Shown here piece after piece: positions 1,027 through 10,013 of a stretch of DNA of 10,013 nucleotides. The notes beneath the pieces are model-generated. The model saw nothing but the letters and a program-made list of their open reading frames with translations, searched no databases and was not told the DNA's origin. The stretch is taken from positions 1 to 10,013 of the forward strand of contig JAILPU010000042.1 in assembly GCA_024699395.1 (NCBI GenBank), given 5' to 3'. The translations under genes were made by a program, and so were the position numbers. Origin of the DNA: Lachnospiraceae bacterium. GTDB lineage: Bacteria; Bacillota; Clostridia; Lachnospirales; Lachnospiraceae. How positions within the stretch are numbered: the stretch's first letter is position 1; every line of letters starts with the position of its first letter.

Positions 1027-1090
1027 GCATAGTGGTTATTTACATGAGACAACGGCGTCTCGGGTTTATCCCGGGGCGCCTTCGTATTTT
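1022..1090 (+). promoter_or_regulatory. Putative ANTAR-type antitermination leader upstream of glnN
   Basis: The well-supported part is a hairpin at 1046-1061, GAGAC-AACGGC-GTCTC: a perfect 5-bp stem with a six-base loop carrying A at position 1 and G at position 4. Its 3' half (1054-1061) is also the start of the terminator's 5' arm, so the two folds exclude each other. A weaker candidate first hairpin lies at 1022-1044: loop ATAGTG at 1029-1034, again A1 and G4, closed by AGC/GTT and TGT/ACA with bulges. Paired hexaloop hairpins with A1 and G4, the second overlapping a terminator, are the known RNA target of ANTAR antiterminators such as EutV and NasR. Inference: a regulator bound to the hairpins stops the terminator forming and lets transcription reach glnN-purF. 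The first hairpin is the weak point. Confidence 0.55.
1054..1090 (+). terminator. Intrinsic terminator/attenuator between dapL and glnN
   Basis: GGCGTCTCGGG at 1054-1064 pairs along all 11 positions (with G-T wobbles) with CCCGGGGCGCC at 1070-1080, around a TTTAT loop. It is followed by the moderately T-rich TTCGTATTTT. It could simply end dapL, but its overlap with the hexaloop hairpin at 1046-1061 suggests it is conditional. Confidence 0.75.
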
Positions 1091-1146: not shown

Positions 1147-3246
1147 ATGGAAAAACAGAACGTACCCGAAATTTTTGGCTCTATGGTATTTGATGACAGA
1201 GTGATGAAATCAAGGCTGTCAGCCAAGGTTTATAAATCACTCAGAAAGACTATCGACGAGAATGCAGATCTTGACGAAGAAGTAGCAGAGGCAGTTGCCG
1301 AGCAGATGAGAGACTGGGCTCTTGAGAAGGGCGCAACCCACTATACTCACTGGTTCCAGCCCCTTACCGGTATAACAGCCGAGAAGCACGACAGCTTCAT
1401 CACCCCCTCACCCGACGGCGGTGTTATCATGGAGTTTTCAGGCAAAGAGCTTATAAAGGGTGAGCCCGATGCATCCTCATTTCCTTCAGGTGGTTTGAGA
1501 GCTACCTTTGAGGCAAGAGGTTATACAGCATGGGATCCCACATCATATGCATTTATTAAGGATCATACCCTTTGCATTCCCACAGCTTTCTGCTCATACG
1601 GCGGAGATGCTCTTGATAAGAAGACCCCCTTACTCAGATCCATGCAGGCACTTAACAGACAGGCTAAGAGAATCCTTAAGCTTTTCGGTAAGGATGTTAA
1701 GAATGTAAGAACAAGCGTAGGACCCGAGCAGGAATATTTCCTTATCGACAAGGAAATGTTTGAAAAGAGACCCGACCTTGTATATACCGGAAGAACTCTT
1801 TTCGGAGCAATGCCTCCCAAGGGACAGGAACTTGACGATCACTACTTCGGTGTGATCAAGCCCAGAGTATCTGCATTTATGGAGGATCTTAACAGCGAGC
1901 TTTGGAAGCTGGGAATCCTTGCAAAAACAGAGCATAACGAGGTCGCTCCCGCTCAGCACGAGCTGGCACCTATTTTCTCCACCACCAACGTTGCAACAGA
2001 CAATAACCAGCTCACAATGGAAATAATGCAGAAGGTTGCAAGAAAGCATGGCCTTGTATGTCTCCTTCATGAGAAGCCCTTCGCAGGTGTAAACGGTTCC
2101 GGTAAACATAACAACTGGTCCATGGCAACAGATGAGGGTTCAAACCTTCTCTCACCCGGAGAAACTCCCTATGAGAACGCTCAGTTCCTTCTATTCCTCT
2201 GCGCAGTAATTAAAGCAGTTGATGAGTATCAGGATCTTTTGAGACTTTCCGTTGCAACCGCAGGAAACGATCACAGACTTGGTGCAAACGAGGCACCTCC
2301 GGCAATCATTTCGGTATTCCTTGGAGACGAGCTTTCTGCAATTCTTGATGCTATCAAAAACGATGCTCCTTATGAAGGCAAGGAGAAAGAGGTAATGAAA
2401 CTCGGTGTTCATGCCCTTCCCAAGTTCTCTAAGGACACCACCGACAGAAACCGTACATCACCCTTTGCATTTACCGGTAACAAATTTGAGTTCAGATCTC
2501 TTGGAAGCGCAAACAGTATCGCATGCTGCAACATCATGCTTAACGCTTCGGTTGCGGAGAGCTTAAGACAGTTTGCCGATTCTTTGGAGGGATCTAAGGA
2601 TTTCGAAAGCGACCTTCACGAACTTATTAAGAAGACCATCAAAGAGCATGAAAGAATCCTCTTTAACGGAAACGGATATACCGATGACTGGGTAAAGGAG
2701 GCAACCGAGGTAAGAGGTCTTTCCAACTTAAAGACCACCGCAGATGCTATGCCTCATCTTCTTGATGAAAAGAACAAAGAGATGCTTATGAGACATAAGG
2801 TATTTACCGAGGCCGAGCTTACATCAAGATGCGAGATCATGCTTGAGAACTACTGCAAGACAGTAAATATCGAAGGTCACACCATGGTTGATATGGTAAG
2901 GAAAAATTACCTTCCCGCCATCGAGGGTTATATGTACAGCCTTGCAAGAACAACTTCTCTTATGAAGTCTGTATCCGACAACGTAAAGTGTGTATACGAA
3001 GTAACCACTCTCGAGAAGCTTTCACAGCTTACCGACAGCATTATGGAATCTGTTGTAACTCTTGAAAAAGCTCTTGCAGATCTTAACGGATATGAAGACA
3101 TTACAGAGACTTCCGTAGCGGTAAGAGACAAGGTGCTTCCCGCAATGGAGACTTTGAGAAAATATGTGGATGAGGCCGAGATGCTTGTAGGTGAAAAGTG
3201 CTGGCCCTTCCCCGGTTACGGAAAGCTTTTGTTCAGCGTATATTGA
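1147..3246 (+). CDS. glnN: Type III glutamine synthetase (GSIII)
   Basis: Makes glutamine from glutamate, ammonia and ATP; cytosolic, and in characterised members a large dodecamer. The 699 residues fit the GSIII family (about 700-730), well above the 440-470 of GSI. Signature blocks: [14 protein letters not shown] about residues 153-166; [11 protein letters not shown] at 191-201 with metal/substrate glutamates; [17 protein letters not shown] from 261; [13 protein letters not shown] at 314-326, the ATP/glutamate-site histidine region; [16 protein letters not shown] at 435-450. The C-terminal part is the family's helical extension. The start is ATG 1147, with AGGAGG at 1136-1141 five bases upstream and the native-looking N-terminus [15 protein letters not shown]. 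purF follows after 19 bases with no terminator, so the two are probably co-transcribed. A putative attenuator lies upstream at 1022-1090. GSIII genes are known from Bacteroides and Butyrivibrio. Confidence 0.97.
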
Positions 3247-5274: not shown

Positions 5275-5340
5275 CCTTATTAAACGTCGGTACTTAGCGA
5301 CCGAACTTTGGTCGCTTATGTACCGCTACGTTTAATACGG
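5275..5340. repeat. Long perfect-armed hairpin
   Basis: ATTAAACGT (5279-5287) pairs with ACGTTTAAT (5328-5336), CGGTAC (5288-5293) with GTACCG (5320-5325), and AGCGACC (5296-5302) with GGTCGCT (5310-5316). That is 22 Watson-Crick pairs, broken by a two-base bulge (5326-5327) and a TT/TAT internal loop, with apical loop GAACTTT. Outer bases 5275-5278 and 5337-5340 add pairs with one mismatch. No T-run follows. It could be a cruciform, an RNA processing site or the remnant of a mobile element. Confidence 0.85.
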
Positions 5341-5367: not shown

Positions 5368-5456
5368 CTCCTGCCGACAAAGCGCGTCACTTGCGATAAT
5401 ATTCGCACCGACAAAGCGCGTCACTTGCGATAATGCTCCTGCCGACAAAGCGCGTC
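5368..5456. repeat. 34-bp-period tandem repeat, about 2.6 units
   Basis: The core CCGACAAAGCGCGTC recurs at 5374-5388, 5408-5422 and 5442-5456, exactly 34 bp apart. Units 1 and 2 share ACTTGCGATAAT after the core; units 1 and 3 share CTCCTG before it. The third unit breaks off where the AT-rich start of the gltB promoter region begins. A fourth core lies at 4669-4683. Confidence 0.88.
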
Positions 5457-5471
5457 TCTTAAAAAACTATA

Positions 5472-5500
5472 TTGACTTTGGCGGGAGATTGCGATACAAT
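5472..5500 (+). promoter_or_regulatory. Sigma-A promoter for gltB
   Basis: TTGACT (5472-5477), a 17-base spacer, then TACAAT (5495-5500): each hexamer is one base off consensus at ideal spacing. Transcription would begin near 5507, just ahead of the first leader hairpin at 5510, giving a leader of about 135 bases before gltB. Confidence 0.87.
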
Positions 5501-5506
5501 CAAACA

Positions 5507-5599
5507 AAATTGCAAAGGTGCAACGAGAAGAAATAATAAAAGAATATTTGAAACAGAAGCAAAGGCGCTTCGGATCTTAGGATCTGAGGCGCTTTTTTT
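5507..5599 (+). promoter_or_regulatory. Putative ANTAR-type two-hairpin antitermination leader of gltB
   Basis: Hairpin 1 (5510-5523) is TTGC-AAAGGT-GCAA and hairpin 2 (5556-5571) is GAAGC-AAAGGC-GCTTC. Both have a six-base loop with A1 and G4, and they are joined by a 32-base A-rich linker. Hairpin 2 shares 5565-5571 with the terminator's 5' arm, so it cannot coexist with the terminator. The core around hairpin 2 closely matches the AGCAANGRRGCUY element that I recall for the Enterococcus eut leaders recognised by EutV, with one loop base differing. Inference: an ANTAR-domain protein, activated by a nitrogen signal, stabilises the hairpin pair and allows read-through into gltB. Without it, transcription stops after about 93 bases, so the leader could also accumulate as a small RNA. 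No regulator gene is in the window. Confidence 0.75.
5565..5599 (+). terminator. Intrinsic terminator/attenuator in the gltB leader
   Basis: The arms at 5565-5576 and 5581-5592 pair at all 12 positions (two G-T wobbles) around a TTAG loop, followed by seven Ts at 5593-5599. AAAG upstream can extend the stem into the T-run. It lies between a strong promoter and the gltB ribosome site, so it must be bypassed for gltB expression. Confidence 0.92.
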
Positions 5600-5640
5600 A
5601 CGTTAAATCTCTTTGAAAGAAGAGTATGGGAGGAAAAGTA

Positions 5641-8600
5641 ATGGTTGATCAATTTGAGCAGATAAGAGAACACGGACTTTACAGAGCCGAATTTGAACAT
5701 GATAACTGCGGAATAGGAGCCATTATAAATATAGATGGCACCGCAGATCATAATATTGTGGCAGATGCATTGTCCATAGTGGAAAATCTGGAGCACAGAG
5801 CCGGTAAGGATGCCGAGGGAAAAACAGGAGACGGAGTGGGAATCCTGACACAGATCCCCCATGACTTCTTTGCAAAGGAACTGGAGAAGATGGGAGTCAA
5901 GGGTATCGCAAAAAGAGGATACGCAGTAGGTATGTTCTTCTTCCCCCAGGATGAGCTGGCAGCCAAAAGGGAAAAATCCATGTTTGAAATAATAACCGGA
6001 AAAGCCGGTTTAAAGTTCCTTGGATGGAGAAAAGTTCCCGTAGCTCCCGAAATACTGGGTACCAAGGCAAGAGAGTGCATGCCCAATATATATCAGGCAT
6101 TTATTGAGAGACCTGAAGGCTGCGAAACCGATCTTGATTTTGACAGAAAGCTTTATATTGTAAGAAGAGAGTTTGAGCAGAGCAGTGTTCACACCTATGT
6201 GCCTTCACTGTCATGCAGAACCATTGTATATAAGGGAATGTTCCTTGTGGGACAGTTACGTACCTTCTTTAACGATCTTGAGAACAAAGAATACAAATCA
6301 GCCATTGCAATGGTTCACTCAAGATTCTCCACCAATACTCAGCCCAGCTGGAACAGAGCTCATCCCAACAGATTTATCGTTCACAACGGAGAGATAAATA
6401 CCATAAAGGGAAATGCGGATAAGATGCTGGCAAGAGAAGAGACCATGCATACAAATGTATTTTCCGATGAGGATATGACCAAGGTGCTTCCTGTTATTTC
6501 AAGTAAGGGTTCCGACTCCGCAATGCTTGATAACACTTTGGAATTTCTTGTAATGAGTGGAATGGAACTGCCTCTTGCAATGGCAATGATGATTCCCGAG
6601 CCCTGGGCGCATAATGAGACTCTTTCTCAGGAGGAGAGAGACTTCTACCAGTATTATGCAACCATGATGGAGCCCTGGGACGGCCCCGCGTCCATCCTGT
6701 TTTCTGACGGTGATGTCATGGGCGCGATCCTTGACAGAAACGGTTTAAGACCTTCCAGATATTATGTAATGGATGACAACAGACTTATCCTTTCCTCTGA
6801 GGTAGGTGTTCTTGATATAGATGAGAGCCATGTCCTTAAAAAGGAAAGACTCCATCCCGGCAAGATTCTTTTGGTGGATACAAAGGAAAAGAGAATAATA
6901 TACGATGAGGAGATCAAAGAGAGATATGCATTCGCAAAGCCCTACGGTGAATGGCTCGACAGTAATCTCACACTTTTATCTGATATAAAGATTCCCAATA
7001 AGAGAGTTCCTGTGATAACCACAGAGGAGAGAAAGAGACTTCAGAAATCCTTCGGTTACACCTGGGAAAATTACCATGACAGCATTCTTACCATGGCAAG
7101 AGACGGATCTGAAGCAATCGGATCCATGGGTGTTGATACTCCCATAGCATCTCTCTCCGGAGAATATCAGCCTCTGTTTTACTATTTCAAGCAGCTCTTC
7201 GCTCAGGTTACCAATCCTCCCATTGACGCACAGAGAGAGGAAATTGTAACTTCCAGAACCGTGTATGTGGGAAAGAACGGTAATCTCTTGGAGGAGAAGC
7301 CCGAGAACTGCCATGTGCTCAAGATCAACAATCCCATCCTTAACGATCTTGACATGCTTAAGATTCTTAATATGAAAAAAGAAGGCTTCAAGGTAGCAAA
7401 GGTATCAATCCTTTTCTACAAGAGCACACCCATGAAGAGAGTTCTCAATCATCTTTTTGTGGAAGTGGACAGAGCCTACAAAGAGGGTGCCAACATCCTT
7501 GTATTGTCAGACAGAGGTGTGGATGAAAACCACGTGGCTATTCCTTCACTCCTTGCTGTCGCTGCGGTACATAAGCACCTTGTAGAAACAAGAAAATGTA
7601 CTGCAATGTCTCTTATACTTGAGTCCGCAGAGCCTGTTGAAGTTCATCACTTTGCAACACTTTTGGGCTTCGGTGCATCGGCAATAAACCCCTATCTTGC
7701 CCATGCCACCATCGCTGAACTTGTGGACAATGAATTACTTGAAAAAGATTATTATGCTGCTGTTGACGATTACGATAAGGCTATTCTTTTCGGTATCGTA
7801 AAGATCGCTTCCAAGATGGGTATTTCCACCATCCAGTCATATCAGGGAAGTAAGATTTTCGAGGCCCTCGGTATTTCCGAAGAGGTTATAAACGAGTACT
7901 TCCCCGGAACCGTATCAAGAATCGGTGGTATCACTCTTGAGGATATCGGAAGAAGCGCAGACGAACAGCACAGCAGAGCCTTCGATCCCTTGGGGCTTGA
8001 TACGGATTTGGAGCTTACCGCTTTGGGACGTCATAAATTAAGAAGTCAGGGTGAGCACCACAGATATAATCCCCGGACCATCCATATGCTTCAGAGTGCC
8101 ACCAGAGAGGGAGACTACGATAAATTCAAGCAGTATTCCAAAATGGTGGATGATGAGAGAACAGGTTATCTGAGAAGCCTTTTTGATTTTGCATATCCTG
8201 ACAAGAAAGTTCCTCTTGATGAAGTTGAGAGTGAAGATTCCATTGTAACAAGATTTAAAACAGGAGCCATGTCCTACGGTTCCATTTCGGAGGAAGCTCA
8301 TACAACTCTTGCCATTGCCATGAACAGACTTCACGGAAAGTCCAACAGCGGTGAGGGTGGCGAGAGTCATGAGAGAATCCTCACAGCAGGTACTTTGGTT
8401 GATATGAATTCTGCCATCAAGCAGGTGGCAAGCGGAAGATTCGGCGTAACAAGCCGATATCTCGTAAGTGCCAAAGAGATACAGATTAAGATGGCTCAGG
8501 GCGCAAAGCCCGGTGAAGGCGGACATCTTCCCGGCAAGAAGGTTTACCCCTGGATTGCAAAGACAAGACATTCAACACCTGGCGTGAGCCTTATATCTCC

Positions 8601-10013
8601 TCCCCCTCATCATGATATCTATTCCATTGAGGATCTGGCTCAGCTTATATACGACCTTAAAAATGCCAATAAGGATGCTCGTATTTCTGTAAAACTTGTA
8701 TCCGAGGCGGGAGTGGGAACTGTTGCAGCCGGTGTTGCAAAGGCCGGTGCAGGGGTTATCCTTATTTCCGGTTATGACGGAGGTACAGGTGCAGCTCCTT
8801 TAAGTTCCATTCACAATGCAGGTCTTCCCTGGGAGCTTGGTCTCAGTGAGACACATCAGACTCTTATTGCAAACGGCTTGAGAAATCAGGTTGTGATAGA
8901 GACAGACGGTAAGCTTATGTCCAGCCGTGATGTTGCAATTGCAGCTATTCTCGGAGCTGAGGAATTCGGTTTTGCCACAGCACCCCTTATCACCTTGGGA
9001 TGCGTTATGATGAGAGCCTGCCAGTCCGACACCTGCCCTATGGGTGTGGCTACACAGAATCCCGAACTTAGAAAGAGATTCGCAGGCAAGCCCGAATACG
9101 TGGAAAACTTCATGCGCTTTATCGCAAGAGGTTTGAGAGAGATAATGAGTGAGCTCGGTGTAAGAACCGTTGCCGAGCTTGTGGGAAGAACAGATCTTTT
9201 GAAGATGAAGGATAAGCTTTCCGATAAGGAAGGCCGTCTCGATCTTTCGGGCATCCTTCTTGATATGTCTAAGAATGACAGAAAAGATATGATATTCGAT
9301 CCCGCAAAGGTTTATGATTTCAAGCTTGAGGCTACCAAGGATGAGAGCGTTCTCCTTAAGTCAGCTGATATTAAGAAAGCGATAACAAAGGGAGAAAAGG
9401 CAACTGCGAAAGTAAGCTTAAAGAGCGTGGACAGAACCTTTGGCACTCTTTTGGGTGCTGAGATTACAAGAAACAATCCCGAAGGATTAAAAGAGGATAC
9501 CATCACCGTTAACTGTGACGGTTCCGGCGGACAGAGCTTCGGCGCATTTATCCCCAAGGGACTTACCCTTGTTCTTTCCGGAGATTCCAACGATTACTTC
9601 GGTAAGGGACTTTCCGGCGGAAAACTTATTGTCAGGGCACCTAAGGAAGCGGCATACGACCCTCATGAAAATATTATAATAGGAAACGTTGCTCTTTACG
9701 GTGCTACCTCAGGTAAGGCATTTATAGCAGGTAAAGCCGGCGAGCGTTTCAGTATAAGAAATTCAGGTGCAATATGTGTCTGCGAGGGCGTAGGTGAGCA
9801 CGGATGCGAATACATGACCGGTGGTACTGCGGTAATCTTGGGAGAGACAGGTAAAAACTTTGCCGCAGGTATGAGCGGCGGTATCGCTTATGTACTTGAC
9901 GAGGGCAATAAGCTCTACAGAAACCTTAACAAACAGCTGGTGGAGATGGAGAGGCTTGAGAAGAAGGAAGATATCGAAGCACTTCGCTCCATTATCGAGG
10001 AACATGTAAAATA
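5641..10013 (+). CDS. gltB: Glutamate synthase large (alpha) subunit, 3'-truncated by the window edge
   Basis: GOGAT: glutamine plus 2-oxoglutarate plus reductant gives two glutamates, closing the ammonia-assimilation cycle with GlnN. The frame is open for 1457 codons to the edge; the family usually has about 1500-1520 residues, so only the extreme C-terminus is missing. ATG 5641 has GGGAGG at 5628-5633. Domains: a 22-residue propeptide then Cys23 (HDNCGIG), the Ntn glutaminase nucleophile, with the glutaminase domain to about 430 (HSRFSTNTQPSW, HNGEINT); a central domain about 470-780 (SLSGEYQPLFYYFKQ, NPPIDAQREE); an FMN-binding synthase domain about 830-1210 (MSYGSIS from 877, KPGEGGHLPGKKV, GGTGAAPLSS from 1047); Cys1121, Cys1127 and Cys1132, the C-x5-C-x4-C ligands of the [3Fe-4S] cluster; and the GXGXG helix domain about 1240-1440 (CDGSGGQSFGAF, GGTAVILG). 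The small subunit gene gltD would be expected downstream but is not visible. No internal frameshift was seen. Confidence 0.97.
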   Translation, partial: MVDQFEQIREHGLYRAEFEHDNCGIGAIINIDGTADHNIVADALSIVENLEHRAGKDAEGKTGDGVGILTQIPHDFFAKELEKMGVKGIAKRGYAVGMFFFPQDELAAKREKSMFEIITGKAGLKFLGWRKVPVAPEILGTKARECMPNIYQAFIERPEGCETDLDFDRKLYIVRREFEQSSVHTYVPSLSCRTIVYKGMFLVGQLRTFFNDLENKEYKSAIAMVHSRFSTNTQPSWNRAHPNRFIVHNGEINTIKGNADKMLAREETMHTNVFSDEDMTKVLPVISSKGSDSAMLDNTLEFLVMSGMELPLAMAMMIPEPWAHNETLSQEERDFYQYYATMMEPWDGPASILFSDGDVMGAILDRNGLRPSRYYVMDDNRLILSSEVGVLDIDESHVLKKERLHPGKILLVDTKEKRIIYDEEIKERYAFAKPYGEWLDSNLTLLSDIKIPNKRVPVITTEERKRLQKSFGYTWENYHDSILTMARDGSEAIGSMGVDTPIASLSGEYQPLFYYFKQLFAQVTNPPIDAQREEIVTSRTVYVGKNGNLLEEKPENCHVLKINNPILNDLDMLKILNMKKEGFKVAKVSILFYKSTPMKRVLNHLFVEVDRAYKEGANILVLSDRGVDENHVAIPSLLAVAAVHKHLVETRKCTAMSLILESAEPVEVHHFATLLGFGASAINPYLAHATIAELVDNELLEKDYYAAVDDYDKAILFGIVKIASKMGISTIQSYQGSKIFEALGISEEVINEYFPGTVSRIGGITLEDIGRSADEQHSRAFDPLGLDTDLELTALGRHKLRSQGEHHRYNPRTIHMLQSATREGDYDKFKQYSKMVDDERTGYLRSLFDFAYPDKKVPLDEVESEDSIVTRFKTGAMSYGSISEEAHTTLAIAMNRLHGKSNSGEGGESHERILTAGTLVDMNSAIKQVASGRFGVTSRYLVSAKEIQIKMAQGAKPGEGGHLPGKKVYPWIAKTRHSTPGVSLISPPPHHDIYSIEDLAQLIYDLKNANKDARISVKLVSEAGVGTVAAGVAKAGAGVILISGYDGGTGAAPLSSIHNAGLPWELGLSETHQTLIANGLRNQVVIETDGKLMSSRDVAIAAILGAEEFGFATAPLITLGCVMMRACQSDTCPMGVATQNPELRKRFAGKPEYVENFMRFIARGLREIMSELGVRTVAELVGRTDLLKMKDKLSDKEGRLDLSGILLDMSKNDRKDMIFDPAKVYDFKLEATKDESVLLKSADIKKAITKGEKATAKVSLKSVDRTFGTLLGAEITRNNPEGLKEDTITVNCDGSGGQSFGAFIPKGLTLVLSGDSNDYFGKGLSGGKLIVRAPKEAAYDPHENIIIGNVALYGATSGKAFIAGKAGERFSIRNSGAICVCEGVGEHGCEYMTGGTAVILGETGKNFAAGMSGGIAYVLDEGNKLYRNLNKQLVEMERLEKKEDIEALRSIIEEHVK

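Follow-up and report, generated by a model that had tools for sequence, protein, structure and literature searches.

A probable ANTAR-type attenuator before gltB in a Lachnospiraceae bacterium and its relation to single-hexaloop leaders of nitrogen genes

How expression of gltB, the gene for the large subunit of glutamate synthase, is set in a Lachnospiraceae bacterium is the question raised by the 10,013-nucleotide stretch of DNA analysed here (the window, whose first letter is position 1). The leader of the gene carries two small hairpins with six-base loops and a terminator, and an earlier note made from the sequence alone had proposed that these form a switch of the kind operated by ANTAR-domain proteins. 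The window corresponds to contig 27 in a draft genome of 1.9 Mb and 333 contigs, which is 76% complete. It contains an aminotransferase gene (named by eye), glnN encoding a type III glutamine synthetase (GSIII; 1147..3246, forward strand), purF, and gltB (5641..10011, forward strand), which reaches the end of the window and for which the ATG at 5641 is the likely start, the listed frame opening at 5626. In the gap of about 800 nucleotides between purF and gltB an imperfect inverted repeat, TTAAACG...CGTTTAA at 5280-5337, was seen by eye and may be a small repeated element. Three tandem repeats of 34 nucleotides are found at 5374-5475 (CCGACAAAGCGCGTCACTTGCGATAAT...), the third 71% alike, and extend into the gltB promoter.

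This promoter, which the earlier note had called near-consensus, is of the sigma-70 type (TTGACT-17-TACAAT, 5472..5500, forward strand) and agrees with the consensus at 10 of 12 positions; here as in all other leaders promoters and transcript starts were assigned by consensus only. Nine nucleotides past its -10 box begins the hairpin P1 (TTGC-AAAGGT-GCAA, 5510..5523), followed by an A-rich linker of 32 nucleotides (5524..5555), the hairpin P2 (GAAGC-AAAGGC-GCTTC, 5556..5571), which on the evidence of folding and covariation is the proposed ANTAR-bound antiterminator, and an intrinsic terminator (5561..5599), all on the forward strand. The terminator stem at 5561-5596 has 16 pairs, the last ones using the U tract (U7, 5593-5599). 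The arrangement that had been described, P1, an A-rich linker and a P2 sharing sequence with the terminator's 5' arm, was confirmed. The P2 loop AAAGGC and the P2 3' arm GCTTC together are the 5' arm of the terminator, and P2 and the terminator are mutually exclusive. P2 has what characterises an ANTAR leader, a six-base loop with A at position 1 and G at position 4 and an overlap with a terminator. P1 provides the second A1/G4 hexaloop expected of a dual-hexaloop leader, and a C:G pair closes the loop in both hairpins.

Folding of the separate pieces yielded -24.8 kcal/mol for the terminator (0 of 200 shuffles as good), -6.3 kcal/mol for isolated P2 (3 of 200) and -3.3 kcal/mol for isolated P1, which is unremarkable by energy because 15 of 200 shuffles match it. 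For P1, RNAfold finds a five-base-pair stem with a four-base loop, in which the first A of the hexaloop pairs with its last U, to be better than the open hexaloop. Among 5000 dinucleotide shuffles, 59 produced an A1/G4 hexaloop on a stem of 4 bp or more between the -10 box and P2, and 3 produced a hexaloop with a C-G closing pair, A2 and R5 (a purine at position 5). No Rfam family was found at gathering score in the window or in 20 leaders.

With -6.3 kcal/mol for P2 against -24.8 kcal/mol for the terminator, read-through requires some stabiliser of P2. By default the nascent RNA would fold the terminator and transcription would end near 5599. When nitrogen is limiting, an ANTAR protein would bind the P2 hexaloop with its C-G closing pair, A1 and G4; P2 held together in this way would block the terminator's 5' arm from pairing, and the polymerase would read into gltB. 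From the sequence we infer the binding of P2 by the ANTAR protein, the direction of the response and its signal.

The gltB leaders of relatives were compared. The gene was found in 121 of 150 genomes of the family and in 47 of 61 genomes of the genus. Of the 138 leaders examined, the family search supplied 110, after omission of 11 matching genomes as contig-edge, partial, weak or not fetched; the other 28 came from the genus search, where 29 loci included one duplicate and 17 matching genomes were not fetched. Seventy-three leaders were without a nearby terminator, several of them visibly downstream of pyrG or purF, one contained an N, and 64 had a terminator. An A1/G4 hexaloop hairpin engages the terminator in 51 of these 64 leaders and does not in 13, so that most of the related leaders with a terminator retain the P2 hairpin and its loop bases, as the earlier note would have it. 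The 51 leaders fall into class A with the geometry of the window (29 leaders, one with a 3-bp stem) and class B (22 leaders), where the 5' arm and loop of the hairpin together are the terminator's 5' arm, typically with the sequence CGC-AANGRN-GCG; two class A rows were later regrouped with class B. A2, R5 and the C-G closing pair occur in 51 of 51 leaders; A1 and G4 had been criteria for selecting these leaders, and A2 and the closing pair had not. A terminator finder allowing no bulges gave the hairpin in 15 of 110 leaders and its RNAfold-based replacement in 22 of 110, and scans of this kind overlook some leaders and may include ordinary terminators. Like hairpins outside the count were seen by eye in L145 and L148, which had been scored as having no terminator, and in L077 and L150, scored as terminator only; one of these has a G1 loop. 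Upstream of the -35 box, a AATNNTCWGACAATT-like box recurs in L071, L133, L139 and other class B gltB leaders, and none was seen by eye in the window. We take this AATNNTCWGACAATT-like box to resemble a CodY box.

When hairpins competing with gltB terminators were collected with no rule for the loop (42 leaders), 26 of 45 had loops of six bases. At 44 terminators 22 A1/G4 competitors were observed, compared to a mean of 3.9 and a maximum of 7 in 200 runs with the 45 nucleotides upstream shuffled. Covariation of the P2 stem was assessed in an alignment of 22 of the 27 class A leaders, the other five rows being omitted; the aligned rows had been preselected for the stem and are hence fully paired by selection. 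It comprised 24 compensated cells versus a shuffle mean of 6.7, and 0 of 500 shuffles reached 24. Three of the four P2 pairs are changed on both sides, a value also reached by 283 of 500 shuffles, and pairing falls from 100% to 24-52% when the partner is slid by 1 to 3 columns. The covarying stem that the earlier note had asked for was obtained for P2, and in the terminator 10 of 13 pairs covary. For the 3-bp stem of class B no covariation was found because this stem hardly varies, and the support for class B consists entirely of loop conservation and position.

These controls bear on the simplest explanation, a plain terminator accompanied by chance hairpins and free of any regulation. It would account for the weakness of isolated P1 and P2 relative to the terminator; in view of the shuffle controls, the covariation of P2 and the recurrence of the element at four nitrogen genes of the same genome it is considered highly improbable. 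The hairpins might also belong to a different sensor, be it a small-molecule riboswitch, a trans-acting RNA or another protein, the likeness to ANTAR leaders then being a by-product of the terminator's A-tract and GGC base. As loop positions 4-6 in class A form the base of the terminator stem, GGC and the A-tract could persist for termination alone. However, A1 and A2 are kept also in loops reading AACGGC or AATGGC, loops of exactly six bases predominate, A1, A2, G4 and the C-G pair are also preserved in the second geometry, where the 5' arm of the hairpin is part of the terminator, and the leaders co-occur with ANTAR genes, which leaves another sensor an improbable explanation.

A Pfam ANTAR search of the draft genome yielded one protein (contig 124, E=2e-13), encoded directly downstream of glnA, and as the genome is 76% complete a second ANTAR gene could be absent from the assembly. 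With this protein present and the hairpin kept in most of the terminator-bearing leaders, neither of the two outcomes named beforehand as refuting the switch, a genome with no ANTAR-domain protein and related leaders keeping the terminator and losing hairpins or loop bases, was encountered as far as P2 is concerned. In all 11 loci inspected by eye (L002 and L033-L042), which include 10 other loci of the family, glnA precedes the ANTAR gene. The gene of NitR, an ANTAR protein, likewise lies next to glnA. Among solved structures the protein of the window genome comes closest to 1s8n (Rv1626; E 8e-6), 6wsh (EutV; 1e-4) and, weakly, AmiR (0.03). Pfam Response_reg found no match in the receiver-like half of the window genome's protein and a weak one in 4 of 7 family members. 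Opposite the phospho-accepting aspartate of 1s8n the protein has an asparagine, and 6 of 6 relatives have a glycine at the like motif, read by eye in an alignment in which the protein itself is out of register. With the phospho-accepting aspartate replaced, an EutV-style phosphorelay is unlikely, and of the ANTAR-domain response regulator expected by the earlier note the ANTAR domain was found and the phosphorylatable receiver was not. Leucine and histidine at the positions of EutV Arg142 and Tyr164, as judged by eye from the alignment, were counted against the proposed switch. The signal of the protein may come from the glutamine synthetase encoded next to it.

Further leaders were sought with two covariance models, R1 and R2, of which R1 consists of P2 and terminator from 22 gltB leaders. 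Its E-values rest on a short calibration, it can match ordinary terminators, and the loop bases in its matches are biased because it was trained on gltB leaders. In the genome of the window R1 recognised gltB (E 5e-9), asnB (4e-4), gdhA (0.003) and glnN (about 0.005), the identities of asnB and gdhA being confirmed by Pfam, and two weaker matches (E 0.5 and 2) look unrelated. The glnN match (1043-1088, E=0.0046) contains a hairpin GAGAC-AACGGC-GTCTC (1046..1061, forward strand, -6.9 kcal/mol) overlapped by a terminator (1054..1080, forward strand, -23.0 kcal/mol). Eight nucleotides upstream of this P2 lies a weak 3-bp P1-like hairpin, AGC-ATAGTG-GTT, with one wobble pair. From the aminotransferase stop (1026) to the glnN hairpin no promoter was accepted by the rule applied, and the hairpin-terminator unit may be fed by read-through. 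At gdhA the 19-nucleotide piece has a better fold than the isolated hexaloop hairpin.

In the family, 128 of 150 genomes have R1 matches at E<=0.1. At E<=1e-4, 88 of 131 genomes with an ANTAR gene have matches and 0 of 19 genomes lacking one do, with a p-value of 8e-9 which, like all p-values here, is too small because the genomes are related; when the 18 training genomes are removed the figures are 70 of 113 and 0 of 19. At more permissive thresholds some genomes lacking the gene have matches too (107 of 131 versus 3 of 19 at E<=0.001, 122 of 131 versus 6 of 19 at 0.1), which counts against the ANTAR reading. A set of 73 places was then compiled, 69 from the family search, taken mostly by score order, and four from the genome of the window. 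One place with no hexaloop was dropped, and one of the remaining 72 has a 1-bp stem. The next gene is glnN in 23 cases, asnB in nine, gltB in eight (rows which overlap the leaders of the gltB comparison), pyrG in five, purF, amtB and carA in three each, glnA, gdhA and glnK in two each, guaA, an ABC ATPase and dapL in one each, and others in nine. One amtB, carA, P-II, pyrG, guaA and ABC protein each was checked, the other names being given by BLAST to the genome's own genes or by eye. With names assigned partly by eye, 61 of the 72 hexaloop matches precede genes of ammonia uptake or assimilation or of glutamine-using amidotransferases.

What the analysis itself shows is the sequence, the competing folds, the covariation, the joint occurrence of leaders and ANTAR genes, and the identity of the nitrogen genes that follow the matches. 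An ANTAR-type antitermination switch on gltB, as originally proposed, remains the best reading. It is very probable that the gltB leader works as an ANTAR-type attenuator of transcription, that the sole detected NitR-like protein binds its P2, that this protein probably controls glnN, asnB and gdhA as well, using a hexaloop at each terminator, and that P1 is an extra.

P1 departs from this picture. The claim of paired hairpins stands for the window itself, where P1 and P2 are both present, and does not extend to the relatives, as P1 was found in only 3 of 51 gltB leaders (the window, L007 and L123, with differing stems). The linkers of these three leaders measure 32, 29 and 31 nucleotides, respectively, a spacing far above the 5-12 nucleotides described for the eut leaders of Enterococcus faecalis (PMC3369931). 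Where a promoter was found, the terminator-engaging hairpin of gltB leaders starts within 18 nucleotides after the -10 box in 40 of 49 cases. The 72 regulon leaders gave a similar result, with 55 hairpins within 18 nucleotides of the -10 box, 6 further away and 11 with no accepted promoter, versus 7 of 71 in a control with the anchor moved 70 nucleotides upstream. A hexaloop starting so soon after the -10 box leaves no room for a P1 in most leaders, and consensus hexaloops further upstream of the regulon hairpins are not in excess (one, compared to three downstream). The P1 finder is able to detect a classical pair, as it did in L364 with a linker of 3 nucleotides before an eutA-like gene; this gene lies beside eutV- and eutW-like genes (6942-10660, names by eye), and the EutV-like receiver there retains its aspartate. 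The L364 genome also has a second ANTAR gene and R1 matches elsewhere, and offers a natural side-by-side of the dual and the single layout. Besides a short-linker pair before amtB in L353, the finder reported in the regulon set an amtB leader with a 40-nucleotide linker (L225) and a case with 62 nucleotides (L235) which is perhaps unrelated. In L009, L126, L336, L339 and L344 the whole hairpin-terminator unit is repeated in tandem before one gene.

One may still hold that these are canonical dual-hexaloop leaders in which the ANTAR dimer must use P1 and P2, single-hairpin relatives being degenerate or having an unseen P1. The near-identical loops of P1 and P2, the recurrence of P1 with changed stems in L007 and L123, the short-linker pairs of L364 and L353, further P1-like hairpins in L332 and L349, and the weak one in the glnN leader are in line with this explanation, as is the need or preference of EutV and NasR for both hairpins. 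EutV is described as requiring both in vivo, and a linker of 14 nucleotides as drastically reducing induction and 20 additional nucleotides as abolishing antitermination in vitro (PMC3369931, PMC8934654). The linkers at gltB, by comparison, measure 29-32 nucleotides, the rule applied found no P1 in 48 of the 51 leaders of this gene, and the closeness of the regulon hairpins to the -10 box (55 of 72 versus 7 of 71 at the shifted anchor) and the lack of an excess of upstream hexaloops likewise argue against an obligatory P1, which makes the dual-hexaloop explanation unlikely.

The best reading is instead a basic element consisting of a single hexaloop at the 5' end of the RNA, used by a NitR-type ANTAR nitrogen regulon, to which gltB in the window adds a distant P1. 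The relatives suggest that one hexaloop hairpin near the RNA start is usually enough. The weak P1-like hairpin before glnN and the more mixed layouts seen in other families speak against this reading. A hairpin at the 5' end would be complete about 20 nucleotides from the start and clear of the polymerase before the far arm of the terminator is made, and such an early, unobstructed hairpin may substitute for the recruiting role of P1. In the window P1 occupies the 5'-terminal place and P2 follows 32 nucleotides on, an arrangement which would fit a protein docking at P1 and passing to P2; loss of P1 is then predicted to weaken and not to abolish control. Most likely P1 is an additional docking site peculiar to the gltB lineage of the window and not an obligatory half of the signal.

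Beyond the family, 245 genomes of the class were searched, and R1 matches at E<=1e-4 occurred in 65 of 124 genomes with an ANTAR match and in 7 of 121 lacking one, these seven genomes outside the family having R1 matches and no ANTAR match, a point against the ANTAR reading. A C-A..G..-G hexaloop was present in 29 of 29 newly fetched loci (five from the family itself). The layout is more mixed, as 15 of 25 leaders with a promoter lie within 18 nucleotides of the -10 box, P1-like hairpins occur in L332 (4-nucleotide linker, one wobble pair), L349 (24 nucleotides) and L353, and a further unit or hexaloop lies upstream in L330, L336, L339 and L344. An exact pattern of -10 box and AAAGC-AAAGGC-GCTTT, from which P1 is absent by construction, was found in 72 stretches of named genomes including Blautia hansenii, Blautia luti and [Clostridium] asparagiforme DSM 15981. 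They are followed by glnN (45), purF (9), amtB (5), asnB (3), gltB, dapL and an ABC ATPase (1 each), and other or no genes (7), and a narrow terminator pattern matched 55 of the 72.

Parts of this picture are already in print, namely glutamate synthase leaders of the dual kind (PMC3369931) and control of GS/GOGAT genes by NitR (PMC6316151). NitR of Clostridium saccharobutylicum is reported as an ANTAR protein that induces these genes by antitermination on nitrogen limitation (PMC6316151). The likeness concerns the regulator as described there and its GS/GOGAT targets; matches here precede gltB, glnN, asnB and gdhA, to which the relatives add purF, carA, pyrG, guaA, amtB and glnK. A covariance search has predicted ANTAR leaders in several phyla, located before genes of glutamate synthase and glutamine synthetase and before further nitrogen genes (PMC3369931, PMC3369936), in agreement with the target genes found here, and since it defined its element as a dual hairpin, leaders with a single hexaloop would have been missed. 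EutV/EutW of E. faecalis share with the present system the ANTAR regulator, the A1/G4 hexaloop P2 overlapping an intrinsic terminator, and antitermination. They differ in that EutV needs two hexaloops with a linker of 5-12 nucleotides, whereas P1 is absent here in most relatives examined and 29-32 nucleotides distant where present, and in that EutV is activated by phosphorylation, while the protein's receiver-like half lacks the phospho-accepting aspartate. For NasR, acting on nasF of Klebsiella, selection returned the C:G closing pair, A1 and G4 that are common to both systems, and NasR binds a single P2 weakly (about 12 uM) and prefers P1P2 (PMC7496416). A structure paper on EutV of 2022 describes each hexaloop as bound singly and redefines the minimal binding motif as one hexaloop, still holds two hexaloops necessary for antitermination, and calls for bioinformatics on single-hexaloop sites (PMC8934654). 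Leaders with a single 5'-terminal hexaloop were not found described as a class in the open-access papers searched.

That a single hexaloop at the 5' end is a complete antitermination signal, which defines a NitR nitrogen regulon in the family and partly beyond and is read by a receiver-like protein not phosphorylatable in the usual way, with P1 as an accessory, is judged fairly probable, sufficiency of the one hexaloop being, like the binding itself, deduced from leader sequences. The ANTAR literature encountered is built on EutV, NasR and AmiR, systems that need two hairpins or favour them. The many leaders in which one hexaloop is joined to a terminator meet the request of the 2022 structure paper, and they make testable in vitro why two hairpins are needed. 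If true, the single-hexaloop signal would revise the view that antitermination needs an ANTAR dimer in contact with two hexaloops, and gut Clostridia would gain a compact nitrogen switch.
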